From an uncultured Aquimarina sp. (GTDB lineage: Bacteria; Bacteroidota; Bacteroidia; Flavobacteriales; Flavobacteriaceae), in assembly GCA_937958985.1 (NCBI GenBank), contig CALGLV010000029.1:1-64000 (forward strand): a stretch of DNA of 64,000 nt. Reading direction: 5' to 3'. The notes below the pieces were generated by a model. The model ran no database searches, had not been told where the DNA came from, and saw nothing but the letters and a program-made list of their open reading frames with translations. This document shows, one piece after another, positions 1 through 24,073 of the stretch. The position numbers were made by a program, and so were the translations under genes. The stretch's first letter is position 1, and each line of letters starts with the position of its first letter.

Positions 1-29
1 GTGTGGGAGTTCGAGTCTCCCCGCCCGCA
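1..29 (+). tRNA. tRNA, 3' end only (possibly tRNA-Leu)
   Basis: The window opens inside a tRNA. A T-arm is clear: stem GGGAG (5-9), loop TTCGAGT (10-16), stem CTCCC (17-21). The 3' acceptor strand CGCCCGC (22-28) and discriminator A (29) follow. CCA is not encoded (next bases CGA), as is common in Bacteroidota. The bases before the T-arm (GTGT) look like the end of a long variable arm, which together with discriminator A hints at leucine, but the anticodon lies outside the window. Confidence 0.75.
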
Positions 30-40
30 CGAAATAAAAA

Positions 41-70
41 CCTCAACTTTTAAAAGTTGAGGTTTTTTGT
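41..70 (+). terminator. Rho-independent terminator of the tRNA
   Basis: A perfect hairpin with stem CCTCAACTTTT / AAAAGTTGAGG is followed directly by a T-run, 11 bases after the tRNA acceptor stem. Confidence 0.85.
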
Positions 71-188
71 TTTTAAGTCCTCATCAATATTTAGTAAACA
101 ACCCCTGAGAACTTATAAAATAGCAGAACCTTTTTCAAATTGTGAATATCTATATTTAATAGCGGGATATAAGGCCTTAATAAACGAG

Positions 189-196
189 TATATTTG
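189..196 (+). promoter_or_regulatory. Bacteroidota -7 box (TATATTTG) of the DUF4494 gene
   Basis: TATATTTG matches TAnnTTTG exactly and lies 22 bases before the start codon at 219. No clear -33 TTG element is seen at the usual spacing. Confidence 0.5.
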
Positions 197-218
197 AAGT
201 CCTAAAAAAAACCTATTT

Positions 219-752
219 ATGAGTATATCGTGGTATGAGTGCAAAGTAAAGTACAGAAAAACGCAAGAATCTGGAGAACAAAAAGTAGTTACAGAAACCT
301 ATTTGTTAGATGCTATTTCGTATACCGAAGCAGAAACCCGTATTAATGAGGAAATGCAAACGTATACAAGCGAAGAATTTAAAATCACTAATATTAAAGT
401 AGCTAACTATTCTGAAATTCATCCCGTCGAAAATTCGGATCGTTGGTACAAATCAAAAGTATCGTTAATAGCTTTTGACGAGGAAAGCGGTAAAGAGCGT
501 AAGTCAAATATTTATTTGTTAGTTCAAGGAAACGATCTTAAGGAAGCATTCGATAACACCAATGCTGCTATGAAGGGAACTTTGGGCGATTATACGATAC
601 CAGCGATTGCGGAATCGCCTGTAATGGATGTATTTCCCTACTTTTCAGGAGATGAGGATCAACTTACAGAAATTAATGATTTCAATTCAATAAAAGACTC
701 CGTTAAATCTAAAGAAGTTTCTAATGAAGAAACCGCTTTAGAAGAAGTTTAA
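219..752 (+). CDS. DUF4494 domain-containing protein
   Basis: A 177-residue soluble protein recognised as DUF4494, a family of unknown function found mainly in Bacteroidota. It starts with the family-like MSISWYECKVKY and includes the conserved stretch around AISYTEAETRINEEM. There is no signal peptide or membrane segment, so it is probably cytoplasmic. The C-terminal 30 residues are acidic and look disordered. It stands alone between a tRNA terminator and the following regulator gene, with its own -7 box at 189. The ATG at 219 is the only sensible start. The role is unknown; the family name is fairly sure. Confidence 0.85.
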   Translation: MSISWYECKVKYRKTQESGEQKVVTETYLLDAISYTEAETRINEEMQTYTSEEFKITNIKVANYSEIHPVENSDRWYKSKVSLIAFDEESGKERKSNIYLLVQGNDLKEAFDNTNAAMKGTLGDYTIPAIAESPVMDVFPYFSGDEDQLTEINDFNSIKDSVKSKEVSNEETALEEV

Positions 753-935
753 AATAGTATTAGCTTGTTTGGAGTTAGTGAAATTATAAATCAATACAAA
801 CGGTATATAGTTTCTCTACTCCATTTGGTTAACTGAGTTTACCTTGTGAAGAATTCAGTATTAATGTATAGGCCTTAAATTAACATAATATTTAATGGTT
901 TAGTTAATTATTTTTCTGAGATTACATTGAAATAA

Positions 936-943
936 TAGCTTTG
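936..943 (+). promoter_or_regulatory. Candidate -7 box overlapping the upstream start of the LuxR-type regulator
   Basis: TAGCTTTG matches TAnnTTTG and overlaps the TTG codon at 941. If it is used, transcription would begin near 950 and translation would have to start at the in-frame GTG at 959. The box could also be a chance match. Confidence 0.35.
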
Positions 944-3745
944 TTTAACAAGTTCAATGTGAAATACCTATTACATCTTTTTATTGTTTGTAGTTATTGT
1001 CTTTTTTCTCAGGAAGCTCCTCCCATAACTAATTTTGATGCCGAAACATATAATGCGAGCAATCAAAATTGGGCAATATCTCAATCGTTACAAAAAAAAA
1101 TATTTGTAGCTAACAACGCTAGTTTGTTAGTGTACAACGGTGCAAGTTGGAAATCGTATGCTTCACCTAACGAATCTATATTGCGCTCTGTAAAAGTTAT
1201 AGACAACTTAATTTATACAGGTTGTTTTATGGAATTTGGCTACTGGAAAGAGGATAATTTAGGACTGTTAGAATATACCTCACTTTCAAAAAAAATTAAA
1301 TCGAAACTTAAACAGGACGAACAATTTTGGAACATTTTTAATGTTGATGAATGGGTTGTTTTCCAATCGCTAAACTGTATTTACATTTACGATACGATAA
1401 AGGACAAATTTGAAACACTTTGTTTTGAAGAAGGTATCGTTAAATCGTTTAAAGTCGGCAATTCTATTTACTTTCAAAAAAATAAAGGGGGGCTTTTTAA
1501 AATAGAATCAGGCAAAGAAAAAACTGTTAGTACCGATGAAATTCTAAAAAATAATCGAATAGTTGCGATTTTTTCAGAGCGTAATAGGTTATTGCTACTT
1601 ACTGAAAATAAAGGTTTTTATTACTTAGAAGATGAAAAGCTAATACCATCTAATTTACTAGCTCAATCCGAGGTTTCTAGATTAAGTATTTATAGTAGTA
1701 TTCAACTCAAAAACAACGATTTTGTACTAGGAACCATTTCAAATGGTTTGCTATGCCTTAGCCCTGATGGAGAAATAAAATTTCAAATTAATCAGGATAA
1801 AGGCTTGCAAAACAATACCGTTTTATCTCTGTATGAAGATGAAGATCTTAATATTTGGATGGGATTAGATAATGGGGTAAGTTTTATAAGCCCTACTTCT
1901 GCTTACAGCATATATAAAGATGCTGAAGGGGTTATAGGTAGTGTGTATGCTGCTAAAACATATAGAGATTATCTGTACTTGGGCACCAATCAAGGTTTGT
2001 TTTATAAAAAATTAAACAGTTCAACTTCTTTTACTTTGCTTAAAGGAACAAAGGGACAAGTATGGTCTTTAGATATTATAAATAACACCCTTTTTTGTGG
2101 ACATAACTCGGGTACTTTTACCGTAAATTCGGATAGTGTTAAACGTATAGTCGACATTCCAGGGGCATGGGCAGTTAAAAGGCTAGCTCCTTCATCGGAT
2201 TTATTAATTCAAGGTAATTATAGTGGTCTTTATGTTTTAGAGCCCTTTAATAATTCTTGGAGGATTAAAAATAAAATAGAAGGATTTAATTATTCTTCTC
2301 GCTATTTTGAGTTAATGGGCACCGAAATATTTGTTAACCATGAATATAAAGGAGTTTTTAAACTAGTTGTAGACAGCTCTTTTTATAAGGTCAAAAAACT
2401 GAGTATCGATACAGTTATTAAAGGGGCAAATTCAAGTATTGTTAAGTATAATAATCAATTACTATATGCCTACAAAAAAGGAGTATTAGTTTACGATAAA
2501 AAGCAAGAAACCTTTATTAAAGATTCGCTTTTAAGTTCGGTGTATACCCCTAAAAATTATGATTCAGGAAAACTTATAGTCCATAAATCAGACAATTCAC
2601 TTTGGTTTTTTTCGCAAAATAAAATCAGTAAAATTCAACCATCAATAACAGGTAATTTAAAGGTAACCGATATTGCTATAGATAAACGAAAAAGAAATAG
2701 TGTTTTAGGTTACGAAAATATAGTGAAGCTAAACAAAACAGGCGATTATTTAATGGGAACTCTTTCGGGGTATATAATATTAAATGAACATCAGTTAAGT
2801 AAAACTAATTTCGAAATTTTTATAGATGAAGTTGAAAAAAGCAACCTTAAATTATCGGCTTTTGTGGCGAAGGATAAAAAAGGAGATTTTGAAGCAAAGG
2901 AAAACAATATTAGAATATCTTTTTTTGTGCCCAGGTATACGAGTTACCTCGATACTTATTATCAATATCAATTAAAGGGTATTTATAATCAGTGGAGCAA
3001 TTGGTCGAAAACCGCAAATGTTAAGTTCGAAAATTTACCACACGGAGATTATACCTTTAATGTTCGTTCAAAAATAGGAGAATCTCAATCAAATAATGTG
3101 GCTTCTTATCAATTCACAATTCAAAAGCCATGGTATATTTCAACCCCTATGTTATTTGTTTATATGCTTGCATTGGCACTTTTTTCATTAGTAATGCACA
3201 ATGTGTATAAAAAATATTACAAGCAACAACAACGTAGGCTATTATTAAAAACAAAAAAAGAATTAGAGTTGGCCAAGGTTCAAAATGAAAAGGCTATCAT
3301 AAAAATTAAAAATGAACAACTTGAGCTAGAAAACAAAAGTAAAACCAAAGAACTAGCTGCCTCTACAATGGGTATGATTCGTAAAAACGAAGTGCTCACT
3401 AATATAAAGAAAGAGTTAAGTAAAGTAGCGGATAAAAAATCAGTAAAAGGAGTAGTTCAAATAATCGAAGATAACCTAAAACAAAACGACGATTGGGTGC
3501 TTTTTCAAGAAGCTTTTAATAACTCGGATAGCGATTTTTTGAAAAATGTTAAAAAATCCCATCCCAATCTTACTCCTAATGATTTAAAATTATGTGCCTA
3601 TCTACGGTTAAATTTATCGTCTAAGGAAATTGCTCAATTGTTTAATATTTCTCCCCGAAGTGTAGAAATAAAACGCTACAGACTTCGAAAAAAACTCAAC
3701 CTACAGCACGAGGATAACCTAGTAAGCTATATTTTAGATTTATAA
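941..3745 (+). CDS. Transmembrane sensor-regulator: beta-propeller, Y_Y_Y domain, TM helix, LuxR-type HTH
   Basis: A 934-residue regulator of the flavobacterial 'triple tyrosine motif plus HTH' type. It has a signal peptide (LLHLFIVCSYCLFSQ), a long periplasmic region of degenerate propeller repeats (about 30-640, with blades such as GTISNGLLCLS and LYLGTNQGLFY), and a Y_Y_Y domain (about 656-733). A TM helix (about 735-756) and a basic coiled coil (about 760-820) follow, then a C-terminal LuxR-like HTH (about 876-921, LSSKEIAQLFNISPRSVEIKRYRLRKKL). The layout resembles hybrid two-component sensors of polysaccharide loci, but the HTH replaces the kinase and receiver, so the sensor would bind DNA from the membrane. 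Being next to glycosidase genes suggests that it controls them. The start is uncertain: TTG at 941 or GTG at 959; an in-frame stop at 917 excludes anything further upstream. Confidence 0.85.
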   Translation: MFNKFNVKYLLHLFIVCSYCLFSQEAPPITNFDAETYNASNQNWAISQSLQKKIFVANNASLLVYNGASWKSYASPNESILRSVKVIDNLIYTGCFMEFGYWKEDNLGLLEYTSLSKKIKSKLKQDEQFWNIFNVDEWVVFQSLNCIYIYDTIKDKFETLCFEEGIVKSFKVGNSIYFQKNKGGLFKIESGKEKTVSTDEILKNNRIVAIFSERNRLLLLTENKGFYYLEDEKLIPSNLLAQSEVSRLSIYSSIQLKNNDFVLGTISNGLLCLSPDGEIKFQINQDKGLQNNTVLSLYEDEDLNIWMGLDNGVSFISPTSAYSIYKDAEGVIGSVYAAKTYRDYLYLGTNQGLFYKKLNSSTSFTLLKGTKGQVWSLDIINNTLFCGHNSGTFTVNSDSVKRIVDIPGAWAVKRLAPSSDLLIQGNYSGLYVLEPFNNSWRIKNKIEGFNYSSRYFELMGTEIFVNHEYKGVFKLVVDSSFYKVKKLSIDTVIKGANSSIVKYNNQLLYAYKKGVLVYDKKQETFIKDSLLSSVYTPKNYDSGKLIVHKSDNSLWFFSQNKISKIQPSITGNLKVTDIAIDKRKRNSVLGYENIVKLNKTGDYLMGTLSGYIILNEHQLSKTNFEIFIDEVEKSNLKLSAFVAKDKKGDFEAKENNIRISFFVPRYTSYLDTYYQYQLKGIYNQWSNWSKTANVKFENLPHGDYTFNVRSKIGESQSNNVASYQFTIQKPWYISTPMLFVYMLALALFSLVMHNVYKKYYKQQQRRLLLKTKKELELAKVQNEKAIIKIKNEQLELENKSKTKELAASTMGMIRKNEVLTNIKKELSKVADKKSVKGVVQIIEDNLKQNDDWVLFQEAFNNSDSDFLKNVKKSHPNLTPNDLKLCAYLRLNLSSKEIAQLFNISPRSVEIKRYRLRKKLNLQHEDNLVSYILDL

Positions 3746-3992
3746 CAGACACTACATCGTTATAGACAACCTCAACATTACCTATACAACTACGTTATTT
3801 TTTAGTTTAACTTACAAAAGTTTATACTTTTTTCACTTTCATTAAACAACTTGAAAGCCTTATTAACAATACGATTACATCGATAATATGGCAAATAAAT
3901 ACGATTATTTGTAAGATGTATATAATTTGTAGCTCAATTTTTTAACAAATCCTCAATTTTTGAATTAAATTAGAGTAGCTAAAAAATTCTAT

Positions 3993-6900
3993 ATGAGCAC
4001 AATAAAAATTTTTTTCATTAAAACGCTGTTTTTATTGTTTGCTAGTAACCTAATTGCACAAAGCCAAAAAGTTACTATAGTAAACAACGAAAAAGGAATG
4101 AAGTTAGTAGCCAATGGTGAAGACTTTATTATTAATGGTATGAATTGGGATTACTTTCCAATTGGTACAAATTATTCATACAGCTTATGGAAACAACCCG
4201 ATGATATTATTAAAGCAGCGCTTGACGCAGAAATGGGGTTGTTAAAAAATATGGGGGTTAACGCTATTAGACAATATACAGGTGTTCAACCTAAATGGAT
4301 TCAATATATCTATGAAAATTATGGAATTTATACCATGTTGAATCATTCTTTTGGAAGGTATGGATTAACGGTAAATGGAATATGGATAGTGAATACCGAA
4401 TATTCTGATGCAGACACACAAAAGCTATTATTGTCGGAAGTAACAGAAATGGTGCAAACCTATAAAGGAACTCCAGGCTTGCTTATGTATTTATTGGGTA
4501 ATGAAAATAATTACGGGCTTTTTTGGGATGGAGCCGAAACAAAAGATATTCCTTTAGAAGATAGAAAATCTACTACCCGAGCAAAAGCTATGTACAAAAT
4601 GTTTAACATAGCAACGGTGGCGATGAAAAAGGTGGATACTTCGGTGCCAATAGCCATGTGTAATGGAGATGTTTTATTTATTGACATTATAGCCAAAGAG
4701 TGCAAAGATGTAGATGTTTATGGGACGAATATGTATCGTGGTATTTCGTTTGGAGACGCTTTTAAAGTGGTAAAAGAAAAACTCAATAAACCAATAATGT
4801 TTACTGAATTTGGTGCGGATGCTTTTAATGCTATCGAAAATCAAGAAGATCAAAAGTCTCAAGCTTATTATATGGTTGGGAATTGGAAAGAAATTTATCA
4901 GAATGCAGCAGGTTTAGGGAAATCTCAAAACTCAATAGGAGGCTTCACCTTTCAGTTTAGCGATGGTTGGTGGAAGTTTGGTCAAACTAAAAACTTAGAC
5001 AGGCATGATACTAATGCTTCGTGGTCTAATGGTGGGTATCAAAAAGATTTTCGCGTTGGTGAAAATAACATGAATGAGGAGTGGTTTGGTATTTGTGCAA
5101 AGGGAAAAACCAATGCAAGAGGGCTATACGATTTGTATCCTCGGGCGGCTTATTATGCACTTAAAGAAGTGCATAACCTAAGTCCCTACGATACAGGCGT
5201 AAATCAAGAATTTATTAATACTTATTTTGATAATATTCAATTAACCGATGCGGTATTGAGAGCAAGAGGAGACAAGGCAGCCTTGAGTAGCGTGAGTAAT
5301 CAGAAACTTAGTATAAGTAATTTAAGAGCCGAATTCACCACCTACAACACAGGAGGAAGTTTATTAACGACTCCCGATGATGCAGATCCTAATTCTAATC
5401 AGTTTCCGAATCAACTGGGTTTTGATCATACACAATCTTACTTTTTTGGCGTAGAAGGAAAACCAGCTTCTAATGTAAGAGCCAATGTAAATTTTAATGT
5501 ATTAGGAAATGTTGCGGCCAACCCGATAGATGAAATTTTTTACGAAAATAGAGGAAGACCAATTACTGTAGCCACCGATAATGGAGATGCAGTTTTAAAT
5601 GATACCAACAGAGTACAGGTATATAATGCAGAATTTGAGTGGAATGCCGACGATTTTGATTTAAGAGGTTTTTACAGAACAGGGCATTATCATTGGGGGT
5701 ATGAAGGAGATTTCTTTGGCTTGTATCCAGAGGCTAATTACGGTCCTAATTTAGATATTTATAATGGTGAAATACTTGGGGTTGAAGTTGATGGTAAAAA
5801 ATCTTTTAAAGGCTTAAAAGCCGCTTTCGGACCACAATTATGGTGGGGTGCTAATCCAGCATTACTTTTAAAATACAATCGTAAAGTTTCAAACGTAGAT
5901 TTAGCCGCTATTTTTCATGAAGATATTGATAACAGAAGTGAAGCATTAAGTTCTATTGCTATTCCCGTACCTAAAACAAGAAGAGCTACACTTTATGCAA
6001 AAACTAAAGTTAAAGATTTTGGACTTGAACTGGGAGCTATGTGGGGTGGACAGCCGTTAAATGGTAGAAAATTTCAAATTGTAGAAGGAGGTCCGGGTAA
6101 TTATGTGGTTTTGAATGATGAGGTAACATCTAGTGACAATTGGGGAGGTAAGGCAAAAATCACCTATCAAAAAGGACGAATTAATTGGTATGCACAAGGA
6201 GCAGCAATGGGTTTAGTTGCCGATGGTGGTGCGGATAATACACAAACGTTTACAGGATGGAGTTTAAAAGATAGTGGTAGTGGAAATCAAACGAACTTCT
6301 TAACAGGAATGACAATTGGCTTAAATAAATTTCAAATTGCACCAAACTTTCTATGGCAAAAACCAATAGTTGATGCGATTCCTGGTGACGCACCAGCACC
6401 AGCAAGACTTAGAAATATTCAAGACGACCCCTTTAGAGTAAGGGCAAATAGAGAAACCATTGCAGGGGAGCTACTATTGACTTACGATCCAACTCCGGGA
6501 ACATGGATGTATGAATGGGATAACGATAGGGCAGAAGATGCAAAATTTGCAATGAGTACAGGTTTTGTGTACAGGCATTTACCAACAGCTCAAGATGCAG
6601 CTATTGGGTTTTTAGCCAATAGACAGTCTTTCGCTTTTCCGGGCTCGGCACCAGCAAGAGATTTGTGGGAAAGTAAAACAAGAATTGTTTCAAAACTAAG
6701 TCCCGATTTTGGACTTATTGCGAATCTGTATTTTGGAAATGTACAGGCAAGAGGTAGTGATGAAAGGCTTATTGAAAGAGTAGGAGGAAATGTTAGAATG
6801 ATTTACAAAAAATTAAAATTAGAGCATTCATTTAAATTTAATGATTGGGGTCCTTTTGATTACCATCGAGATTTTAACCTTACCTATCCAGTTCAATTAA

Positions 6901-7124
6901 TGCTCGATTTATCTACAACTGTTGGGAAACAAAAATGGTTTGTATTACCAAATACTAAAGTAGGAATAAGAGGAACTTGGAGGTCGTTAAATGAGTTTTC
7001 ACCAAGATTTGCACCAGCACAAACGGCTGAATTTTCTACAGAACCCATATTTAGTACTGTAGGTTTTGACGATGGATCGGAGTGGGAAATTAGAACGTAT
7101 GTTCACTTAAATATTGGGAAATAA
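3993..7124 (+). CDS. Clan GH-A glycoside hydrolase fused to a putative outer-membrane beta-barrel
   Basis: A 1043-residue exported protein. After a signal peptide (1-22, ending LIAQ), residues about 28-410 form a TIM-barrel glycosidase of clan GH-A. The likely acid/base is Glu171 in YLLGNEN and the likely nucleophile is Glu272 in IMFTEFGAD, the spacing expected of retaining enzymes related to GH2. Residues about 440-1043 hold no known sugar-binding module. They consist of alternating amphipathic strands rich in Gly, Trp, Tyr and Phe, with polar turns, ending in a strand that closes with VHLNIGK; this is typical of an outer-membrane beta-barrel. The enzyme would therefore be held in the outer membrane by its own barrel. 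A CBM lipoprotein and a GH16 enzyme follow, so the likely substrate is a beta-glucan. The exact GH family is not recognised. The barrel is inferred from the strand pattern. Confidence 0.75.
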   Translation: MSTIKIFFIKTLFLLFASNLIAQSQKVTIVNNEKGMKLVANGEDFIINGMNWDYFPIGTNYSYSLWKQPDDIIKAALDAEMGLLKNMGVNAIRQYTGVQPKWIQYIYENYGIYTMLNHSFGRYGLTVNGIWIVNTEYSDADTQKLLLSEVTEMVQTYKGTPGLLMYLLGNENNYGLFWDGAETKDIPLEDRKSTTRAKAMYKMFNIATVAMKKVDTSVPIAMCNGDVLFIDIIAKECKDVDVYGTNMYRGISFGDAFKVVKEKLNKPIMFTEFGADAFNAIENQEDQKSQAYYMVGNWKEIYQNAAGLGKSQNSIGGFTFQFSDGWWKFGQTKNLDRHDTNASWSNGGYQKDFRVGENNMNEEWFGICAKGKTNARGLYDLYPRAAYYALKEVHNLSPYDTGVNQEFINTYFDNIQLTDAVLRARGDKAALSSVSNQKLSISNLRAEFTTYNTGGSLLTTPDDADPNSNQFPNQLGFDHTQSYFFGVEGKPASNVRANVNFNVLGNVAANPIDEIFYENRGRPITVATDNGDAVLNDTNRVQVYNAEFEWNADDFDLRGFYRTGHYHWGYEGDFFGLYPEANYGPNLDIYNGEILGVEVDGKKSFKGLKAAFGPQLWWGANPALLLKYNRKVSNVDLAAIFHEDIDNRSEALSSIAIPVPKTRRATLYAKTKVKDFGLELGAMWGGQPLNGRKFQIVEGGPGNYVVLNDEVTSSDNWGGKAKITYQKGRINWYAQGAAMGLVADGGADNTQTFTGWSLKDSGSGNQTNFLTGMTIGLNKFQIAPNFLWQKPIVDAIPGDAPAPARLRNIQDDPFRVRANRETIAGELLLTYDPTPGTWMYEWDNDRAEDAKFAMSTGFVYRHLPTAQDAAIGFLANRQSFAFPGSAPARDLWESKTRIVSKLSPDFGLIANLYFGNVQARGSDERLIERVGGNVRMIYKKLKLEHSFKFNDWGPFDYHRDFNLTYPVQLMLDLSTTVGKQKWFVLPNTKVGIRGTWRSLNEFSPRFAPAQTAEFSTEPIFSTVGFDDGSEWEIRTYVHLNIGK

Positions 7125-7134
7125 AGAAAAGAAT

Positions 7135-8019
7135 ATGATGAAATCAAGAAGACATATAAATACTAAAGTAACACTGGTTTTAGGAATTATACTTAGCCTT
7201 ACCTTAGGTTGCGAACGAGAAACTTCGGAAAATGTAACGTTTGCTACATTCTCTAACGATGGAAGAATTTTTATTGATAGTTTTAGTCCGGGCTTAGAAT
7301 ATTTGCCGTTTGCAGGCTCAAAATTTGAAGCATTTACAGTAGATACGGATGAAGTTTTTCAAGGGGCAGCATCAATGCGTTTTGATGTGCCTAACTTTGG
7401 TGATCCTGACGGATCATTTGCGGGGGCCATATTTCCAAACGACGGCAGGGATTTAACGGATTTTGATGCGCTTACGTTTTATGCAAAAGCTTCTGTTGCC
7501 GCTACTATTAATGAAATAGGTTATGGCGATAGTTTTGGTGAAAATAGATTCTTAGTTGGAACTTCAAATCTTAGATTAACTACTAATTGGAGGAAATACA
7601 TTATTCCTATTCCTGACCCCTCTAAACTTACATTCGAAAGAGGAATGTTTTGGTATGCCGAAGGTCCTGAAGAAGGTAATGGATACACTTTTTGGATTGA
7701 TGAATTACAGTTTGAAAAACTAGGAACTATCGCGCAACCTAATCCAGCAATTTTATCGGGAGAAGATAGAGTAAGAGATTTATCTGCGGGATCAGTAATT
7801 ACTATCGATGGATTATCACAAACCTTAAATTTAGCGGATGGGAGTAATGTCACTTTAGCTACACCTCCTTCTTACTTTAACTTTAGTTCTTCTAATGCTA
7901 CCGTAGCTCATGTTAATGATTTAGGTGTAGTTACTGTTATTGGTAGCGGAACTGCGGAAATCACAGCAACTATTGCAGGGGTAGCGGCAAGAGGTTCCCT
8001 TACTATAAATTCTAATTAA
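7135..8019 (+). CDS. CBM-like / Big_2 domain surface lipoprotein
   Basis: A lipoprotein of about 294 residues (lipobox LSLTLGC). Residues about 35-195 look like a beta-sandwich carbohydrate-binding module of the CBM11/galactose-binding type (QGAASMRFDVPNF, DFDALTFYAKAS, near-terminal YTFWIDELQFE). Residues about 215-294 form a Big_2 Ig-like domain (VITIDGLSQTLNLADGS, GVVTVIGSGTAEITATI). There is no catalytic motif. It follows the glycosidase-barrel gene by 10 bases and precedes GH16, so it is probably a surface glycan-binding partner. A longer reading from TTG at 7114 overlaps the upstream gene and is unlikely; ATG 7135 (or 7138) gives a proper lipoprotein signal. Confidence 0.8.
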   Translation: MMKSRRHINTKVTLVLGIILSLTLGCERETSENVTFATFSNDGRIFIDSFSPGLEYLPFAGSKFEAFTVDTDEVFQGAASMRFDVPNFGDPDGSFAGAIFPNDGRDLTDFDALTFYAKASVAATINEIGYGDSFGENRFLVGTSNLRLTTNWRKYIIPIPDPSKLTFERGMFWYAEGPEEGNGYTFWIDELQFEKLGTIAQPNPAILSGEDRVRDLSAGSVITIDGLSQTLNLADGSNVTLATPPSYFNFSSSNATVAHVNDLGVVTVIGSGTAEITATIAGVAARGSLTINSN

Positions 8020-8092: not shown

Positions 8093-8935
8093 ATGAGAAA
8101 GACTTATATAAAAAAATGGTTCACCACTTCGGTTGGATTACTATTTGGGTCACTTTCATTGTACTTAATTACGATTAGCTGTGCCAATGATGATACTCAA
8201 ACAGTAGCCAATTTTAATGAAATTACAATGCAAGATGAGTTCAATATCGATGGAGCTCCAAATAGTTCAATTTGGGGATTTGATATTGGTACAGGGAATA
8301 ATGGATGGGGCAATCAAGAATTACAGTTTTATACCGATCGTTCCGAAAACGTTAAAGTTGAAAACGGTGTATTATCAATAACAGCAAGAGCCGAAAATTT
8401 TAATGGATCCTCTTTTACATCTTCAAGGTTGTTGACAAGAAATAAGTTTGAACAGTCTTACGGCAGGTTTGAAGCCCGAATTAAGTTGCCTTTTGGTCAA
8501 GGTATTTGGCCTGCCTTTTGGCTGTTAGGAGCTCGAGAAGATGCTCCATGGCCTGAAATAGGAGAAATAGATATAATGGAATATAGAGGGCAAAACCCTA
8601 CGGTAATTTTAGGGAGTGTACACGGTCCAGGATACTCCGCAGGCGAAGCAATTTCGAAAAGCTTCACGCTAGAAAATGACCGCTTCGATACCGATTTCCA
8701 CGTTTTTGGAATAGAGTGGGGGCCAAACTATATAAACTACTATGTTGATGATGTGCTTTACAATCAAATTACTTCTGAAGACGTAACGGGTGATTGGGTG
8801 TTTAATGCTCCTTTTTATATACTTATAAATGTTGCTGTGGGAGGCAATTTTGTAGGATCACCTAATGCAGAAACTCGTTTCCCACAAACGATGGAAGTTG
8901 ATTACATACGAGTTTATAAAAATGATAACCTTTAA
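8093..8935 (+). CDS. GH16 family endo-beta-glucanase (laminarinase-like) lipoprotein
   Basis: A 280-residue GH16 hydrolase. The signal peptide ends in a lipobox with Cys30 (ITISC-ANDD), so the enzyme should be lipid-anchored, and the acidic residues after the cysteine favour surface display. The catalytic signature GEIDIMEY places the nucleophile at Glu158, the helper Asp at 160 and the acid/base at Glu163. The beta-bulge form of this motif (ExDxxE) is that of the laminarinase/lichenase groups. Other GH16 landmarks are WGNQELQFYTDR, SYGRFEARIKLP, GIWPAFWLLG and the C-terminal MEVDYIRVYKN. It would cleave beta-1,3 (or mixed) glucans. It lies in the same-strand cluster with binding lipoproteins on both sides. 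Confidence 0.93.
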   Translation: MRKTYIKKWFTTSVGLLFGSLSLYLITISCANDDTQTVANFNEITMQDEFNIDGAPNSSIWGFDIGTGNNGWGNQELQFYTDRSENVKVENGVLSITARAENFNGSSFTSSRLLTRNKFEQSYGRFEARIKLPFGQGIWPAFWLLGAREDAPWPEIGEIDIMEYRGQNPTVILGSVHGPGYSAGEAISKSFTLENDRFDTDFHVFGIEWGPNYINYYVDDVLYNQITSEDVTGDWVFNAPFYILINVAVGGNFVGSPNAETRFPQTMEVDYIRVYKNDNL

Positions 8936-8945
8936 AAATAGAATT

Positions 8946-10769
8946 ATGAAAAAAATCAAAACTAAAGCTTTAGGGATCATAGTATCCTTACTAGCTATTT
9001 CGCTGGGATTTGTTGGTTGTAGTGACGACGACTTGGATTTACCTCCTGTAACTGCAGGGTTTACATTTAATGTAAATCAAGAGAACGGAACAGTAGCTTT
9101 TACTAACACTTCGCAAAATGCAGACAACTTTATATGGGATTTTGGAGATGACAATACTTCAACTCTTTCAAACCCAACGAATACTTTTGCTAATGGAGAA
9201 TTTACGGTAACCTTAACAGCGTCTAATGTTGCAGGGTCAACGGATACGGCACAGGAAGCGATTGTTATTAATGTTGCTGCTGATCCCGATAATCCAAACG
9301 ATAATGGCGAGGGGTTTGATAGTGGATTGTTAACCAGTGGTGATTTTGAAGGGGACAATAGTGCTTGGTTCGGTGGCGGACTTAATATTGTAACAGAAAA
9401 TGGAAATAATTTTCAGCAAGTAAATGTAGAAGCAGCAGGTAACCCTTTTGATGTAAATATTAGTCAGTTGGTAGATTTGGTTGAAGGTACTACTTATGAG
9501 TTATCTTTTGACGCCTCTTCATCAACCAGCCAAACAATTTTAGCAGGTATTGGTTTAAATGTAGATCCTTTTACAAATAACAGTCAGCCAGTTGCTTTAA
9601 CTACCGATTTACAGCGTTATACTTTAACATTAACTGCTGCAGGTTTTGGAGGAATAGGAAATAGAGTATTATTTGATATGGGGGCTGCAATAGGTGTCGT
9701 AACTATTGATAATGCATCCTTAGTAATAAATGAAGAAGAAGTTGTACAACCACCTTCAGATTTTGATAGTGGATTATTAGTTAATGGTGATTTTGAAACT
9801 GGTATTTCACCATGGATTATAGGCGTAGATGATAACGCCCCAGCTCCTTCAGCAACGGACTCAGGAAATACTTTTTATTCAGTTAATGTAGAAGCAGTAG
9901 GAAATCCTTTTGATGTGAATTTAAGTCAGAAACTTGAAATAGTTGATGGCTCTACTTATACGATCACTTTTGATGCGTGGTCGGATAGAAATAGGTCCAT
10001 ACTCGCAGGTATTGGTTTGAGTGGTGGAGATTTTTCTGCAAATTCAGAAAGTGTAGCAATTAATACAACAAGAAACACCTATAGTGTAACCTTAACAGCT
10101 AATGGTTTTGGAGCCTCAGATGCACGAGTATTGTTTGATTCAGGTGCTGAATTAGGTATAGTTAACATAGATAACGTGTCTTTAACCGTAGATTCTTCAG
10201 GAGTAGATATGGGAGGTAATGACATGGTATTTACTGGAGGATGCGATGGAGAATTAGTGGCAGCAACCAGTTTGCCTTTGGATTTCGAAGGTTGTGAAAC
10301 CTTTCCTTCAAATATTAATTTTGGTAGTGGATTAACATCTACTTTGGTTGACGTTACTACCATACCTAATGTTACGTCAACAGCAGCTAACCCAAGTGGG
10401 TTTGCACTACAAGTTGATAAGCCTACGGGGTCAGACTTTTTTGCAGGAATTCAAAATATTTTCGCAAGCAATTTCGATTTAACTACAACAAATACTTTTA
10501 GGATGAACGTTTTATCTACAAAGGCTAATGTAGTTTTTAGGTTAGAGTTGTTAGTATCACCTAACGACGGAAGTATAGGTAATCCTACACCTGTATTTGT
10601 AACAATTCCAACGGCAAACACATGGACTGAAATTGAATTTACATTTGAGAATTTACCAGCATCTCCAACAACGTACAATCAATTAGTAATTAAGCCTGAT
10701 AATGATATGGCGGATAGCGGAATTACTAATGGAGGAACTTATTATATTGATGATTTAAGGTTGGAATAG
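8946..10769 (+). CDS. PKD-domain lipoprotein with tandem CBM4-like modules
   Basis: A 607-residue lipoprotein (lipobox ISLGFVGC, then SDDD, a surface-export-like signature). Order: PKD domain (about 38-110, with WDFGDDNTS), two similar beta-sandwich modules (about 125-270 and 275-425) that both open with FDSGLL and carry VNVEAxGNPFDVNxSQ, and a divergent third sandwich (about 440-607) ending in YYIDDLRLE. The repeats resemble CBM4/CBM_4_9 modules, which bind beta-glucans or xylans. No catalytic residues are seen. It is 10 bases behind GH16 and is the last gene before a terminator, so it is probably the glycan-capture protein of the cluster. Start: ATG 8946 matches a lipoprotein signal; the longer reading overlaps GH16. 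Confidence 0.85.
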   Translation: MKKIKTKALGIIVSLLAISLGFVGCSDDDLDLPPVTAGFTFNVNQENGTVAFTNTSQNADNFIWDFGDDNTSTLSNPTNTFANGEFTVTLTASNVAGSTDTAQEAIVINVAADPDNPNDNGEGFDSGLLTSGDFEGDNSAWFGGGLNIVTENGNNFQQVNVEAAGNPFDVNISQLVDLVEGTTYELSFDASSSTSQTILAGIGLNVDPFTNNSQPVALTTDLQRYTLTLTAAGFGGIGNRVLFDMGAAIGVVTIDNASLVINEEEVVQPPSDFDSGLLVNGDFETGISPWIIGVDDNAPAPSATDSGNTFYSVNVEAVGNPFDVNLSQKLEIVDGSTYTITFDAWSDRNRSILAGIGLSGGDFSANSESVAINTTRNTYSVTLTANGFGASDARVLFDSGAELGIVNIDNVSLTVDSSGVDMGGNDMVFTGGCDGELVAATSLPLDFEGCETFPSNINFGSGLTSTLVDVTTIPNVTSTAANPSGFALQVDKPTGSDFFAGIQNIFASNFDLTTTNTFRMNVLSTKANVVFRLELLVSPNDGSIGNPTPVFVTIPTANTWTEIEFTFENLPASPTTYNQLVIKPDNDMADSGITNGGTYYIDDLRLE

Positions 10770-11204: not shown

Positions 11205-12356
11205 CTATCTATATCCAAAATCCTCCTTAATACGATCTGCTTTTTGAAGCATGATGTCTTTGGTTAAAAAAGAAATTTCTTGAAGTAAGAAGCCGTTTTG
11301 GTAGGTTCTCATTGCCTGCTTGGGTTTTCCTTGTTGTTCATATACGGTTCCTAAAAAATAGTTCCCTAGCATGTGCTCAGGATATAATTTTCGAGCTAGA
11401 TTCCCTAGTTTTTCCAATTCATCCCAATTTTCTGTTTCTTCTAACGTAGATGATATAGCTACAAAATCGTTGACACGTACTTTTTTGTAAACCCCTAAAT
11501 AGTCTTCAATAACTTTATACTTTTCAGTTAAATATTCATAAGGAGAACCTTCCAATTTAGAAATAACTTCTTTGTATTCTTTTTTGCTTATTGGGCGGTA
11601 AATAGAGAAAATATTTTCTAATGCTTTTGGAATCCCTGTAGCTACTAATGAGTAATGTGAAGCGTCTTCAAAATCATTAAAAAAGTATTTTACGTTAGGT
11701 TTTTCTACTGCCGAAATTTCATCGTTTACAGCTAAGATATCTTCTCTTAACCCTTTAACATCGTTAGAAGCAGTTGCTAAATAATACCAAATTTTATTTT
11801 CAGAAGATGCCAGCGTTTTCTTAATGCGCTCGCTCATGCTAGGTGCATATTCAGGGCTTAAATTAATATAAGCTTGAAACAAAGGATTTTGCTTAAGCAT
11901 AAAATAATTAATAAAATTTGAGGTATAATCGTGCCCCATTATAATTTTGAATTTCGCTATTCTATAGTTTTGTTCTAGATGAGGTATCAATTCTGTTTCT
12001 ATAAAATCGTAAAACTTCTTACCTTCATATTCAGGCATTTGACTATTGGTATCGTAACGGCAATCTTCTCTTCTGGTCTGTAGCTGTTTAATGCCCACAA
12101 CAATACTTTCAGGCATATCATCCCAATATGAAAAGTATTTTACATTCCCTACTAAGGGGTCAAATAAGTAATCTCCATCTAAGGTTAATATAAGCGGGTA
12201 TCTTTTGTCTTCCTTTTTTTTATAACTTTTAGGAAGCCTAATTTTTATTTCTCGAGTACTATTTAATTGGAAAGACTCAATGCCTTTAGTGATAGTTTGT
12301 GAAAAACAAGGAGCGATAAACAGTAAACTAAGATATACTAAGAAAGTTTTTTTCAT
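11205..12356 (-). CDS. Putative esterase-fold (PF00756-like) exported protein lacking the nucleophile serine
   Basis: A 383-residue protein with a signal peptide (ending PCFSQ) and an alpha/beta-hydrolase region of the putative esterase (D-type) family: RYPLILTLDGDYLF, then a strand leading into MGHDYTSNF, and a later SHYSLV. Family members have Ser at the nucleophile elbow (GHSxGG); here that position is Asp143 (G141-H142-D143). The later His234 is retained. The C-terminal 100 residues are helical and TPR-like (LGNYFLGTVYEQQGKPKQAMRTY). It is the last gene of a minus-strand run behind an LPG_synthase_TM protein, panD and panC. Activity cannot be assumed; it may be a pseudoenzyme or use another chemistry. 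Confidence 0.75.
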   Translation of the reverse strand: MKKTFLVYLSLLFIAPCFSQTITKGIESFQLNSTREIKIRLPKSYKKKEDKRYPLILTLDGDYLFDPLVGNVKYFSYWDDMPESIVVGIKQLQTRREDCRYDTNSQMPEYEGKKFYDFIETELIPHLEQNYRIAKFKIIMGHDYTSNFINYFMLKQNPLFQAYINLSPEYAPSMSERIKKTLASSENKIWYYLATASNDVKGLREDILAVNDEISAVEKPNVKYFFNDFEDASHYSLVATGIPKALENIFSIYRPISKKEYKEVISKLEGSPYEYLTEKYKVIEDYLGVYKKVRVNDFVAISSTLEETENWDELEKLGNLARKLYPEHMLGNYFLGTVYEQQGKPKQAMRTYQNGFLLQEISFLTKDIMLQKADRIKEDFGYR

Positions 12357-12400
12357 AATGTAGGTGCATCTATTTGGTAATGAAAGGTTAATTTATGAAA

Positions 12401-13366
12401 TTATTTCTTCTTTAAGAAGAAAGGAAGTAAAATGAATGAAAAACCTCCAATGATAATATTGGTAATAGTTTGAGTGCCCCACAGTACCCATCCATAAGCT
12501 TCGCCAATAGATTGCTCAACATTGAAGAAAATTAAGATTGCTCCAATGGCTATTGGGAAAACACCAAGGCCGCCGTTAGATACCGTCATGGCGAATGAGC
12601 CTACAATAAAAGCTGCTAAAGCCGCTGAAAACGATAGGTGGTTAAGCTCTGGTATAGCAAATTTCATAATGTAAAACATAAAGATATAAGCACTCCAGAT
12701 AAAAAAAGTATGAAATATAAATGAAACCCTATTTTTCATCTTTAAAACACTTAAAATCCCTTCGTAAATTTCTAAAATAAATTTGCGAACTTTCTTGAGC
12801 ATTTTAATGTCACTTTTTTTTACAACTAAATAGCAAAAATAAAGGAGTATTATAAATAATATGATCCCTAAAAAAATAAATAAAGGATTGATGTTTTCAT
12901 TTTCAAAATAATTTAAAAAAAGTGTAGTATTGGTTGCTACACCAATTAGAACGACTAAGAGAAGCATTATTAAGTCAACAATTCGTTCACTAATAACGGT
13001 GCCAATAGTTTTTTGAAAGGGTACATCTTCGTAATTGGATAATGTAGAAGCTCTTAAGATTTCACCAGATCTGGGTATGCCCAAGTTAGCAAGATACCCC
13101 ATCATCAAAGCCATATAACTTGTCGATAATCTTGGTTTATAACCTAGGGTGTTAGCTAAAAACAACCAACGATATGATCTTGAGATGTGCGATAGAATTC
13201 CTAAAAATGCAGATAAAATTATCCACAAAGGCTTAGCTGTTTTTATGCTTTTCCAGAGTATCTCTCTTTCTTCTTCTGAAGTTTTATGGAATGAATACCA
13301 TATAAAAAACACACCAATACCAATAGGAATAACTACTTGTAAAACTTTTTTTACAGCTATTTTCAA
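12401..13366 (-). CDS. Lysylphosphatidylglycerol synthase TM-region (flippase-like) membrane protein
   Basis: A 321-residue inner-membrane protein with about eight hydrophobic helices, of the LPG_synthase_TM / UPF0104 family (SHISRSYRWLFLANTLGY, ALMMGYLANLGIPRSGEILRA, GSFAMTVSNGGLGVFPIAIGA). The catalytic GNAT-like domain of true MprF proteins is absent, so a transport or flippase role is more likely than aminoacylation. The start is TTG at 13366, five bases after the panD stop codon; no in-frame ATG precedes it. It is probably co-transcribed with panC-panD. Confidence 0.88.
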   Translation of the reverse strand: MKIAVKKVLQVVIPIGIGVFFIWYSFHKTSEEEREILWKSIKTAKPLWIILSAFLGILSHISRSYRWLFLANTLGYKPRLSTSYMALMMGYLANLGIPRSGEILRASTLSNYEDVPFQKTIGTVISERIVDLIMLLLVVLIGVATNTTLFLNYFENENINPLFIFLGIILFIILLYFCYLVVKKSDIKMLKKVRKFILEIYEGILSVLKMKNRVSFIFHTFFIWSAYIFMFYIMKFAIPELNHLSFSAALAAFIVGSFAMTVSNGGLGVFPIAIGAILIFFNVEQSIGEAYGWVLWGTQTITNIIIGGFSFILLPFFLKKK

Positions 13367-13371
13367 TAGTG

Positions 13372-13722
13372 TTATTTCAAAAGGTTGTTTTCTTCATTAG
13401 GAAAAACCAGAGAAGGAGTAAATTGTTTTGCTTCTTCTAAAGTAAGCATACAATAGGTAATTAAAATAAGTACATCTCCTTTAGAAACTTTTCGTGCAGC
13501 AGCTCCATTAAGTGTTATTTCTCCGCTATTTCTAGGCCCTGGAATAGCGTAAGTTTCCAGGCGCTCCCCGTTATTGTTATTTACAATTTGCACTTTTTCT
13601 CCTGAAATAACGCCAGCAGCATCCATCAAATCTTCATCAATAGTAATACTACCAATGTAATTTAGCTCAGCACCAGTAACTTTTACGCGGTGTATTTTAG
13701 ATTTAACAACATGTACAAACAT
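13372..13722 (-). CDS. panD: Aspartate 1-decarboxylase (pyruvoyl-dependent)
   Basis: A 116-residue proenzyme that makes beta-alanine from L-aspartate for pantothenate synthesis. The self-cleavage site is Gly24-Ser25 in [13 protein letters not shown], and [10 protein letters not shown] at the N-terminus and [20 protein letters not shown] are family signatures. Cleavage makes the pyruvoyl group on Ser25. It lies 13 bases downstream of panC on the same strand, so both ends of the pantothenate condensation are encoded together. Confidence 0.97.
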
Positions 13723-13735
13723 TCGGCAAAAATAA

Positions 13736-14587
13736 TTAATTTAAAGCAATATTATCTATAAGTCTCACATTCTGTTCGGCAAAAACAGCAATAAAGGCCC
13801 TGTATTTTTTAGAATGGTCCACGGACTTAATAGATTCTAAGGTTTCTACGTCAGCAATTTCGAAATACTCGAGGTCAAAATTAGTTTCATTCTTAAAAAC
13901 TGAAGTTACAAACTTCTTAATTTGTTCAGCATTATTTGTGCCAAACATTTCTTTCGTTTTAATTAAGGTTTTGTGAATTATACTGGCCTGTTGTTTTGCG
14001 TTCTCCGAAAGTCGTTGATTTCTACTGCTATATGCTAATCCATTATTCTCTCTGTAAATAGCGCATCCAATAATTTCAATATCAATACATTTTATCGCTA
14101 CGAGCTTGCGAACAATTTGTAACTGTTGAAAATCTTTTTCTCCGAAATAAGCTCGGATAGGGTTAACGGCATTAAATAAATGAGTTAAAACTGTGCCAAC
14201 GCCATCGAAATGCCCGGGTCTAAATTTACCTTCCATTAAGGATTCAATTTTTCCGAAATCAAATTTTAAAGAAGTTACAGTACCGTTGTATAAATTTTGA
14301 GGAGTTGGAGCAAAAATTATAATATCTTCTGAGGTTTGCTGAAGCAATGCTTCGTCCTGCTTTAAGGTTCGAGGGTAATTTTCTAAGTCACTTGAGTTGT
14401 TAAACTGTGTAGGATTAACGAAAATACTGACAATCGTGACGGAATTTTCAGATAAACTCTTCTTAACCAATGTGATATGGCCAATATGTAAAGCCCCCAT
14501 AGTGGGTATAAAACCAATGCTTTTATTTTTTTTGTAAATAGGGTTTAAATGATTTTTGAGCGCTTCTTTGGTAGTGAAAATTAACAT
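13736..14587 (-). CDS. panC: Pantoate--beta-alanine ligase (pantothenate synthetase)
   Basis: A 283-residue cytoplasmic enzyme that joins pantoate and beta-alanine with ATP. The nucleotide-binding [10 protein letters not shown] (28-37), [30 protein letters not shown] and the KMSKS-like YSSRNQRLS are all present and the length is normal. It is the first gene of a minus-strand run panC-panD-LPG_synthase_TM-esterase-like. The first gene of the opposite strand (GT5) starts 103 bases away, so the intervening stretch holds divergent promoters. Confidence 0.97.
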
Positions 14588-21735: not shown

Positions 21736-24073
21736 TAAAATTCATTTAATAGGTATATTGTTTTGCACACTTCAGGCTTTCAGCCAGGAGTGTGCTTTTC
21801 ATATTGCAGGTGTTATTAAAGATGAAGGAACTAATATTCCTTTAGACAATGCCTCTTTGTATTTAGAAGAAACGAAACAAGGAGCTATATCTGATGATAA
21901 AGGGGCTTTTGTTTTTCATAATATATGTGAGGGTAAATATCATTTAGTAATCACACATATTAGTTGTGCAACCAAAGAAATATTTATTGAGGTTTCACAA
22001 GACACTACTGTCGATTTAACAATTAAACATACTAATCACGATCTAGAAGACGTAGTGATCTTTGGGAATTCATCTAATACGACTAACCAAAACACTGAAA
22101 CAATTTCTAATCAATATATTAGTGACAATGCCTCTCAAAATTTAGGGAGCCTGGTTGAATCTATTGTAGGAGTCAGTACCATTAAAAATGGGAATACCAT
22201 TGCCAAACCTGTGGTGCAAGGCAATTTCGGAAATCGATTGACTATTTTAAATAATGGGGTAGCACAAAGCGGACAGCAATGGGGAAATGATCACAGTCCG
22301 GAAATAGATCCTTTGGTAGCCAATAAAATTAGTGTTGTTAAAGGGGTAAGTGCTTTAAAATACCTAGGTTCTAACTTGGGTAGTGTGGTGCTAGTGGAGC
22401 CTAATGTTATAAACCAAGAACCTCATTTACATGGAAAAGCAAGCTATTTTTTTAATTCTAATGGCTTTGGGCATGGTGCAAACTTAGAATTACAACAGTA
22501 TAAAAAAATTGGCTGGAAAATAAATGCTACTATTAAAAAAGCAGGCGATCGAAGTTCGAATGAATTTGTTTTAAAAAATACAGGTAATCAAGAGTTTAAT
22601 ATTGCTTTCCAGCTAGAGAAAGAATATTCTAGCGGATTAAAGGCAGAGTTATATGCCAGTTCATTCAATACTACTATTGGTATTTTTCAAGGTTCACAAG
22701 CCTCAAATTTAACGGATTTGGAGAATATTCTTCGTTCAGAGCAACGATTTTCCAATGAAGATTTTTCATACGATATTGGAGCTCCAAGACAGGAAGTAAG
22801 TCACCAACTGTTAAAATTGCACGTGAAAAAGGAATTAAACGAATTGGCTTATTTGGATTTTACTCTAGCGGGACAACTTAACAATCGAGAAGAGTTTGAT
22901 AATCGACGAAGTGCGTTACGGGATACCCCTGTTTTAGGTTTATTAAATTACAATTTATTTAGTGAAGGTAAGTACCACAAACGCCTTTCAAATAATTACG
23001 TTTTTAATACAGGTCTTCAGCTTAGTTATACCAATAATACTAATGATTCGGAAACGGGGGTGCTGCCTTTAATTCCTGATTATGATCTGTTTCAAATAGG
23101 TGCATTTACAACCTTGAAAAAGAAATTGAATAAAAATACAATAGAGTTGGGATTAAGGTATGATTTTACAACACAAAACGTTTTAAGAATTACCAGAAAT
23201 GAAATACCCCGACGTGTTGTTGCAGAGGAAGACGTGTTTAACAATTTGAATGCTTCAATAAGTGTAAAAAGATATTTTTCAGAACATATTACAGGAACGT
23301 ATAGTTTAGGATACGCGTCTAGAAATCCAGCGATTAACGAATTATATAGTTTTGGATTGCACCAAGGAGTTGCTAGTTTTGAAAGAGGGGATCCAGATTT
23401 GGATACTGAAAATGGCTTAAAAACCAATTTGGAATTGGAAGGCGATATTAACGAGAGATTTACGTTTAAGTTACTGGGTTATTTTCAACGTATTCAAAAC
23501 TATATTTTTTTAGAGCCTACAGGTTTTGAATTAACCAATAGAGGTGCCTTACCTAGTTTTGAATACAATCAAGTAAATGCTCAAATATTTGGTTTTGATA
23601 TAGCTACAAAATGGGAAATAACAAAATCAATTTTTAGTACTGCTAAATATGCTTTTATACAAGGTGTTAATACATCTCAAGGTAATATTGGAATTATCAA
23701 TTTACCATCAAATAACCTTCGTTTTGGATTGGGGTATCAATTTACAAATGCTTTTAAGCTATTTGGGAGGTCTTTTGAGAATACAGAATTGGGTGTAAAT
23801 AGTTTACATGTATTTAAACAAAATAACATTAGTTTTGATCAAGAATTGCCTTTAAATATTGAGCGTACCGAATTTGTTCCAATACCAGATGGGTATACGC
23901 TCCTTGGATTATCATTTGCTTCTGAGATTCAATTAGGTAAAAATAGATTGCGGTTAACAGGAAAGGTAGATAATTTACTGAATATAGCTTACCGAGATTA
24001 TTTAAATCGACAACGTTACTTTGCTAACGATTTAGGTATAGATATTTCTTTCGGAGCGAGTTTAAAGTTTTAA
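21725..24073 (+). CDS. TonB-dependent outer-membrane receptor, metal-uptake type
   Basis: A 782-residue receptor. The signal peptide ends QAFSQ, followed by a carboxypeptidase-regulatory-like domain (about 28-105, GVIKDEGTNIPLDNASLYLEE), a TonB-box-like LEDVVIFGN, a plug (about 120-230, including NGVAQSGQQWGNDHSPEIDP and ISVVKGVSALKYLG) and a 22-strand barrel ending GIDISFGASLKF. It is shorter than SusC proteins (about 1000) and has the size of siderophore or metal receptors such as ZnuD. It is coupled to the upstream lipoprotein and lies 2 bases before a Fur-family gene. Start: ATG 21725 gives a good signal peptide; a longer TTG reading inside the lipoprotein gene is unlikely. Zinc is my best guess for the ligand. 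Confidence 0.88.
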   Translation: MYSSKIHLIGILFCTLQAFSQECAFHIAGVIKDEGTNIPLDNASLYLEETKQGAISDDKGAFVFHNICEGKYHLVITHISCATKEIFIEVSQDTTVDLTIKHTNHDLEDVVIFGNSSNTTNQNTETISNQYISDNASQNLGSLVESIVGVSTIKNGNTIAKPVVQGNFGNRLTILNNGVAQSGQQWGNDHSPEIDPLVANKISVVKGVSALKYLGSNLGSVVLVEPNVINQEPHLHGKASYFFNSNGFGHGANLELQQYKKIGWKINATIKKAGDRSSNEFVLKNTGNQEFNIAFQLEKEYSSGLKAELYASSFNTTIGIFQGSQASNLTDLENILRSEQRFSNEDFSYDIGAPRQEVSHQLLKLHVKKELNELAYLDFTLAGQLNNREEFDNRRSALRDTPVLGLLNYNLFSEGKYHKRLSNNYVFNTGLQLSYTNNTNDSETGVLPLIPDYDLFQIGAFTTLKKKLNKNTIELGLRYDFTTQNVLRITRNEIPRRVVAEEDVFNNLNASISVKRYFSEHITGTYSLGYASRNPAINELYSFGLHQGVASFERGDPDLDTENGLKTNLELEGDINERFTFKLLGYFQRIQNYIFLEPTGFELTNRGALPSFEYNQVNAQIFGFDIATKWEITKSIFSTAKYAFIQGVNTSQGNIGIINLPSNNLRFGLGYQFTNAFKLFGRSFENTELGVNSLHVFKQNNISFDQELPLNIERTEFVPIPDGYTLLGLSFASEIQLGKNRLRLTGKVDNLLNIAYRDYLNRQRYFANDLGIDISFGASLKF

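Follow-up and report, generated by a model that had tools for sequence, protein, structure and literature searches.

Laminarin is a major algal carbon store, and its passage across the outer membrane is ascribed to SusCD. The nearest described machine is the SusCD utilisome, in which, according to the accessible part of its description, a barrel and a surface lipoprotein, encoded in a PUL, are united with surface glycoside hydrolases (GHs) and SGBPs (PMC7618045). The nearest published idea is FbGH17b from the laminarin PUL of Formosa, likewise a transporter-CAZyme fusion of the Flavobacteriia, in which an inner-membrane type MFS carries a C-terminal GH17; the accessible text of the same paper says that the Formosa GH16, GH17, GH30 and GH149 genes have TonB receptors and SusD nearby (PMC6246565). 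A laminarin PUL is also described from Muricauda lutaonensis, where its positions are said, in the part available, to correspond largely to the laminarin-induced Formosa cluster (PMC13188888, 2026), and the available part of a study of bins lists 11 multi-CAZyme Bacteroidia loci without susCD, for which substrates are not given there (PMC10811738). The locus described here has, like SusC/SusD, a predicted barrel and a lipoprotein partner, but the barrel lacks a recognised plug, the partner is CBM30-like instead of a SusD, and GH and barrel share one covalent chain. It differs from FbGH17b in that an outer-membrane barrel is predicted and the enzyme, a predicted GH-A domain, is N-terminal.

The window analysed is a stretch of 64,000 nucleotides from an uncultured Aquimarina sp., and the features discussed are collected in Table 1. 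The fusion open reading frame is a real gene, and the antisense frame translated across it is full of stops. A first-pass annotation had read its product as a glycosidase and an outer-membrane barrel in one polypeptide, and the open reading frame, the Pfam match, AlphaFold2 and the Foldseek/VIA comparisons agree on this architecture. An AlphaFold2 model of residues 24-1043, generated from an alignment of the window with 79 of 80 related loci, comprises a TIM domain and long strands from about residue 444 (mean pLDDT 75, pTM 0.52), a pTM at which the arrangement of the two domains is not fixed by the model. A search of PDB sequences with the whole fusion protein as query returned chance-level matches only.

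Table 1. Features of the fusion locus, in positions of the window.
Feature	Position	Strand	Basis
Probable PUL regulator: propeller, Y_Y_Y, LuxR-type HTH	941..3745	+	Pfam Y_Y_Y, GerE and Reg_prop over cut-off
GH-barrel fusion gene	3993..7124	+	1043 aa, without internal stop
Sec signal peptide, residues ~1-23	3993..4061	+	Cleavage site by eye, sequence inspection
GH-A TIM-barrel catalytic domain, residues 24-429	4062..5279	+	PF02836; fold; ends of stand-alone homologues
Glu171 (GNE171NN), predicted acid/base	4503..4505	+	Invariant 80/80 in alignment A1
Glu272 (TE272FGAD), predicted nucleophile	4806..4808	+	Invariant 80/80 in alignment A1
Predicted outer-membrane beta-barrel, residues 444-1043, ~22 strands	5322..7121	+	AlphaFold2, Foldseek/VIA, strand alternation
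Partner lipoprotein CBMlp: lipobox, CBM30-like domain, Big_2 Ig domain	7135..8019	+	Pfam/profile searches
GH16 lipoprotein, predicted surface endo-beta-glucanase	8093..8935	+	PF00722, 97 bits
PKD + CBM_4_9 lipoprotein, predicted glucan binder	8946..10769	+	Pfam; start codon picked by inspection

The Pfam model Glyco_hydro_2_C (PF02836, a TIM barrel) covers residues 77-283 with 36.5 bits, against a cut-off of 21. Both of the catalytic glutamates claimed earlier, Glu171 and Glu272, are invariant in every one of the 80 sequences of alignment A1, which comprises the window and 79 of the 80 fetched related loci, and from what is known of GH-A motifs we take the former to be the acid/base and the latter the nucleophile. 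The domain therefore combines a predicted TIM-barrel fold with two glutamates conserved in the alignment, as in clan GH-A. Its fold resembles GH158, GH2 and GH157 (Foldseek, VIA), the top Foldseek match being the GH158 structure 6pal at 13% identity, and it has the TIM-barrel fold and the two catalytic glutamates in common with the GH158 and GH157 beta-1,3-glucanases and the GH2 glycosidases, but differs from them by its low identity of about 11-21% in structural alignments. The enzyme profile matched GH158(Pro) with an E value of 0.0011, weaker than its matches to two GH2 chains. PF02836 was the sole Pfam match at E ≤ 0.1, no GH2 N-terminal sugar-binding or immunoglobulin-like domain being found, and the catalytic domain begins at about residue 24. 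Stand-alone homologues of the enzyme domain stop near residue 430.

As VIA on the whole model covered only the TIM part, residues 430-1043 were modelled alone (mean pLDDT 74.6, pTM 0.72), and the Foldseek and VIA rows listed for this barrel-only model are outer-membrane barrels. Our own reading of the DSSP output, which also underlies the assignment of the short turns to one side, gives about 22 long strands, and counting two short ones as well would raise the number to 24. With 22 strands chosen, the ten turns on one side are 2-3 residues long except for two, of 20 and 12, and on the opposite side 10 of the 11 loops span 13-59 residues and one spans 7; short turns on one side and long loops on the other are usual in an outer-membrane barrel with both ends periplasmic. 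Hydrophobic alternation between inside and outside reached 2.71 over these strands versus 1.42 ± 0.23 in shuffles, with none of the 2000 reaching that value, and 1.46 by the same measure in the strands of the TIM domain. The model, the Foldseek/VIA matches and the alternation thus support the original proposal that the roughly 600 residues after about residue 440 form an outer-membrane barrel, and the two alternatives that had been named for this region did not survive. A set of soluble beta-sandwiches was rejected on the barrel-only model and its Foldseek/VIA matches, the predicted fold being that of a membrane barrel instead. Export as T9SS cargo was rejected since no C-terminal sorting domain was found with the T9SS models of NCBIfam at E ≤ 0.1 and the C-terminus is a predicted barrel strand.

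Neither a Plug (PF07715) nor a CarboxypepD_reg-like domain was found in the fusion by Pfam at E ≤ 0.1, the same library detecting both in a relative's SusC. The barrel profile gave a single match at E ≤ 10 against PDB sequences, an antibody chain (E 1.4). A viral fold library gave seven matches at E ≤ 0.001, including generic porin, SusC-like and autotransporter rows. AlgE, MOMP, OprD/Occ, LamB, ScrY and the TonB-dependent barrels have the barrel fold in common with the fusion, but its barrel is without sequence similarity to them. Loops are usually the most variable part of a barrel; here the long loops and the strands have the same mean conservation (0.78 each), three long loops being nearly fixed (0.90, 0.90 and 0.98) and several others poorly conserved (0.63-0.72). 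Among 45 pairs from 10 SusC-containing loci, the median identity was 71.5% for the barrel versus 55.5% for SusC and 73.3% for the enzyme, and the barrel was more alike than SusC in 42 of these pairs, which are not independent. We take this higher identity and the loop conservation to argue against the barrel as a mere anchor.

The fusion is a conserved and widespread Bacteroidota family. At least 587 stretches encode a relative, a number in which one gene may count more than once, and the best 80 loci were kept, in each of which the match either spans almost all of the protein or breaks off at the end of a contig. Of 247 genomes drawn evenly from the class, 14 match, the window's own among them; in 13 the match is full-length, and in G063 it is confined to the enzyme part. 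Across 395 Bacteroidota genomes, a strong enzyme match (E ≤ 4e-169) is present in 43, among them all 35 that match the barrel, of which 33 hold it intact and two (G343 and G451) hold remnants; the enzyme is thus present without an intact barrel in 10. In a tree of the GH domain, whose bootstrap is not settled and in which the enzyme-only proteins L155, L160 and L163 sit on long branches and are flagged as unsure, the enzyme-only label needs seven changes. Six of the groups are nested among fused proteins, and the seventh, the pair L161/L162 at the tree's unresolved base, could be ancestral rather than a loss. On this tree the seven changes are best read as repeated loss of the barrel, a reading supported by G451, a decaying gene in which the enzyme itself is broken, and by the 64-residue barrel remnant retained in G343. 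The enzyme-only proteins keep the GNE motif in 10 of 10 cases and, under a strict pattern, TEFG in 9 of 10 (L158 unmatched), which suggests that the enzyme remains under selection once the barrel is gone. As enzyme-only versions persist, some of them beside SusCD (3 of 13 loci), the barrel is not required by the enzyme.

What the barrel does not part from is the lipoprotein encoded next to it: across the 395 genomes the barrel is inseparable from the CBM30-like CBMlp, an association that is new here. In the window, the CBMlp ATG lies 10 bp past the fusion stop codon. The first domain of CBMlp shows a weak similarity (E about 0.002) to the CBM30 structures 1wmx and 2c24, and the other, a Big_2-like Ig domain, mostly falls slightly short of the Pfam cut-off. 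A profile made from at most 40 of the 80 best loci found CBMlp in 33 of 33 intact-barrel genomes (E ≤ 9e-71) and at comparable strength in one of the 362 others (G349, 1.7e-55); among the latter, the first domain is weakly matched in G605 and G362, all other weak matches being to the Ig part. None of the 10 genomes with the enzyme but no intact barrel gave CBMlp, save for one weak Ig-part match in G511, in a search that scored at most six candidates per genome and could miss weak copies. The position of the gene was assessed in 117 fused loci: the best 80, plus 37 that came from the genome samples and include one broken gene. CBMlp is encoded immediately downstream of the fusion in all 80 best loci and in 34 of the 37, the three exceptions being the broken gene, a contig end, and a locus (L199, genome G366) whose contig carries it some 10 kb upstream instead. 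Comparison of fused (34/3) with enzyme-only (0/10) cases gave a Fisher value of 5.5e-8, which ignores relatedness and is not proof. A SusD-family lipoprotein is not a constant partner, as SusD occurs in only 12 of the 117 loci (8/80 and 4/37).

The neighbours on which a glucan substrate had been proposed are as claimed, Pfam finding a lipoprotein with a weak Big_2 match, a GH16 and a PKD/CBM_4_9 lipoprotein; the PUL genes of the window are the regulator, the fusion, CBMlp, the GH16 and the PKD/CBM lipoprotein only. Loci of relatives hold more. As many of them stop at contig edges, the flank counts for the best 80 and the 37 genome-sample loci are lower bounds: CBMlp 80 and 34, GH16 73 and 33, GH149 59 and 30, GH17 51 and 22, GH30 40 and 20, and GH3 6 and 3, with the regulator family in 61 of the 80 but only 6 of the 37. 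The GH149 of the relatives matches 6hq6 at 1596.5 bits and their GH17 matches 6fcg at 845.8 bits, and an MFS permease is found beside the GH30 and GH3. Relatives thus have a laminarin-PUL gene set (GH16, GH17, GH30, GH3 or GH149 co-located), and their loci both support the glucan substrate and narrow its prediction to laminarin-type beta-1,3-glucan. In the window's own genome, which is 80% complete, no GH149 or GH17 was found, and there are nine Plug matches, i.e. SusC-type receptors elsewhere. The cluster type of the Muricauda PUL matches the fusion loci, with the same layout, and in the accessible text the gene that corresponds to the fusion by gene order is named a 'GH2 beta-glycosidase' (PMC13188888). 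Outright replacement of SusCD by the barrel was considered and rejected: there is no strict exchange, SusC lying near 13 of 117 fused genes (9/80 and 4/37) as well as near the three enzyme-only genes mentioned above.

Acid-rich lipoprotein tails mark surface export in Bacteroidota. Among the six residues after the lipobox cysteine, the mean number of acidic residues is 2.6 in CBMlp (104 of 130 rows with a lipobox) and 2.0 in GH16 (107 of 122), beside 2.46 in SusD (13 of 15), and it is 0.76 in GH17 (63 of 87), 0.33 in GH3 (6 of 14) and 1.14 in GH30 (42 of 63); enzyme-only lipoproteins, with a lipobox in 7 of 14 rows, average 1.0, a value that favours neither surface nor periplasm. Given SusD-like acid tails on CBMlp and GH16 and none on GH17 and GH3, the former two are probably at the cell surface and the latter two periplasmic. 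In the model a dozen or so residues of low confidence link the GH domain to strand 1, and in a barrel with an even number of strands the first would start in the periplasm, so that the GH domain of the fusion is most simply placed on the periplasmic side.

Taken together, the locus probably encodes a unit that takes up laminarin-type beta-1,3-glucan across the outer membrane and has its enzyme built into the channel protein, with transport, sidedness, lid role and activity inferred from sequence, predicted folds, co-occurrence, losses and gene order. It would best be read as a SusCD-like pair, composed of a plugless barrel and a glucan-binding lid, with a glycosidase fixed on the periplasmic side. 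Surface GH16 and CBM lipoproteins would bind and cut laminarin, and the CBM30-like lipoprotein would bind glucan at the barrel mouth and, lid-like, hand chains over. Oligosaccharides would then cross the barrel of about 22 strands, which has no recognisable TonB plug domain, and the GH-A domain at the periplasmic mouth would cut each chain as it emerges and would probably also restrict the otherwise open pore in the manner of a plug. In relatives, periplasmic GH17, GH30 and GH3, the MFS permease and the GH149 phosphorylase would complete the breakdown.

The fusion could instead be an accessory to a SusCD, often encoded elsewhere, serving as a docking or processing part of a utilisome and not itself an importer. 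The loci that do hold SusC (13/117) or SusD (12/117) are consistent with this, as are the union of SusCD, GH and SGBP in the described part of the utilisomes (PMC7618045) and the TonB receptors and SusD said to lie near the Formosa laminarin genes (PMC6246565). However, 104 of the 117 loci are without SusC in the fetched flanks, contig ends included, and the constant partner is a CBM30-like lipoprotein, so we think this role unlikely. Surface display, in which an autotransporter-like barrel is a mere anchor and the glycosidase lies outside the cell, would accord with the order of N-terminal enzyme and C-terminal barrel in type V secretion and with a helix (model residues 394-409) before strand 1. 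The beta-domains of type V autotransporters have 12-16 strands, and about 22 are predicted here; moreover, no autotransporter beta-domain was found by Pfam at E ≤ 0.1, the helix region is retained in several barrel-less enzymes, and neither the three nearly fixed loops nor the strict co-occurrence with a CBM-type lipoprotein suits a mere anchor, making display improbable as well. We give very little credence to export, i.e. secretion of a glucan that the cell makes itself and the GH domain trims, as in AlgE or BcsC systems, as the neighbours are degradative (GH16, GH17, GH30, GH149 and a sugar permease) and no glycan synthase was found among the 13 neighbour proteins scanned. Least credible of all is an ordinary GH2 enzyme without a membrane barrel, as annotated in print for Muricauda and as the PF02836 match might suggest, since the GH2 N-terminal and immunoglobulin-like domains were not found and the fold predictions contradict it, 600 conserved residues being a predicted outer-membrane barrel.

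For the preferred reading of an uptake unit, the idea raised by the first-pass annotation, that hydrolysis may be coupled to entry of the product through the same molecule, is strengthened by the strict pairing of barrel and CBMlp and by the presence of SusC near only 13 of the 117 loci. A further step, which we regard as possible but doubtful, would make this a TonB-independent importer in which the glycosidase is a catalytic gate replacing the plug, the CBM30-like protein is the lid and hydrolysis drives uptake by trapping the product. The siting of the Formosa laminarinase genes near TonB receptors and SusD argues against a purely SusCD-free system, and, together with the SusC-type receptors elsewhere in the window's genome and the 13 loci with SusC, it suggests that laminarin may have other ways in besides the barrel.

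In the accessible text of the Muricauda report, the words 'outer membrane' do not occur and 'barrel' refers to enzyme folds (PMC13188888). Among the open-access papers searched, none was found whose title or abstract describes a PUL glycosidase joined to an outer-membrane barrel, and an enzyme-channel uptake gate that digests glucan as it enters is probably of an undescribed kind. The co-loss of barrel and CBMlp makes the two a directly testable pair. If the proposal is true, the fusion would join the published MFS-GH17 as the second enzyme-transporter fusion in this kind of pathway; and if it is a route for glucan, the known outer-membrane importers would gain one whose enzyme and channel form a single chain and whose partner is not SusD.

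The partner lipoprotein of the fusion, which combines a CBM30-like with a Big_2 domain, is shorter in the window than in related genomes, where its cluster has a median length of 483 aa (versus ~295 aa) and the sequence extends past the Big_2 domain. Among the 395 Bacteroidota genomes sampled, G349 alone has a strong match to this lipoprotein yet lacks a match to the barrel. In a further genome, G366, the gene next after the fusion (locus L199) encodes a different protein, which by eye appears GH18 chitinase-like, and the CBM lipoprotein lies on the same contig, ~10 kb upstream of the fusion.

Positions 1-4000 of the window are the left end of contig C29, and the window start coincides with the contig end. 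The GH149-GH17-GH30-MFS half of the locus is absent from the window, and searches of the window's own genome, which is 80% complete, found neither GH149 nor GH17. No SusC or SusD is labelled adjoining the glucan cluster of the window; a TonB-dependent receptor plug is present in a separate ORF of the window, far from this cluster.

Coordinates of the features discussed
Feature	Location	Length	Remark
CBM lipoprotein	window 7135-8019	~295 aa	stops after Big_2 domain
TonB-dependent receptor plug (PF07715)	window 22079-22384		
Strong CBM-lipoprotein match	G349:C1:379421-380209		
Protein following the fusion	L199 (G366) 11653-14103	816 aa	

Barrels in decay or reduced to remnants were observed beside the enzyme at two loci. 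At L188 (G451), the fusion gene is split into frames, and at L164 (G343) an intact enzyme is followed by a barrel remnant of 64 residues.
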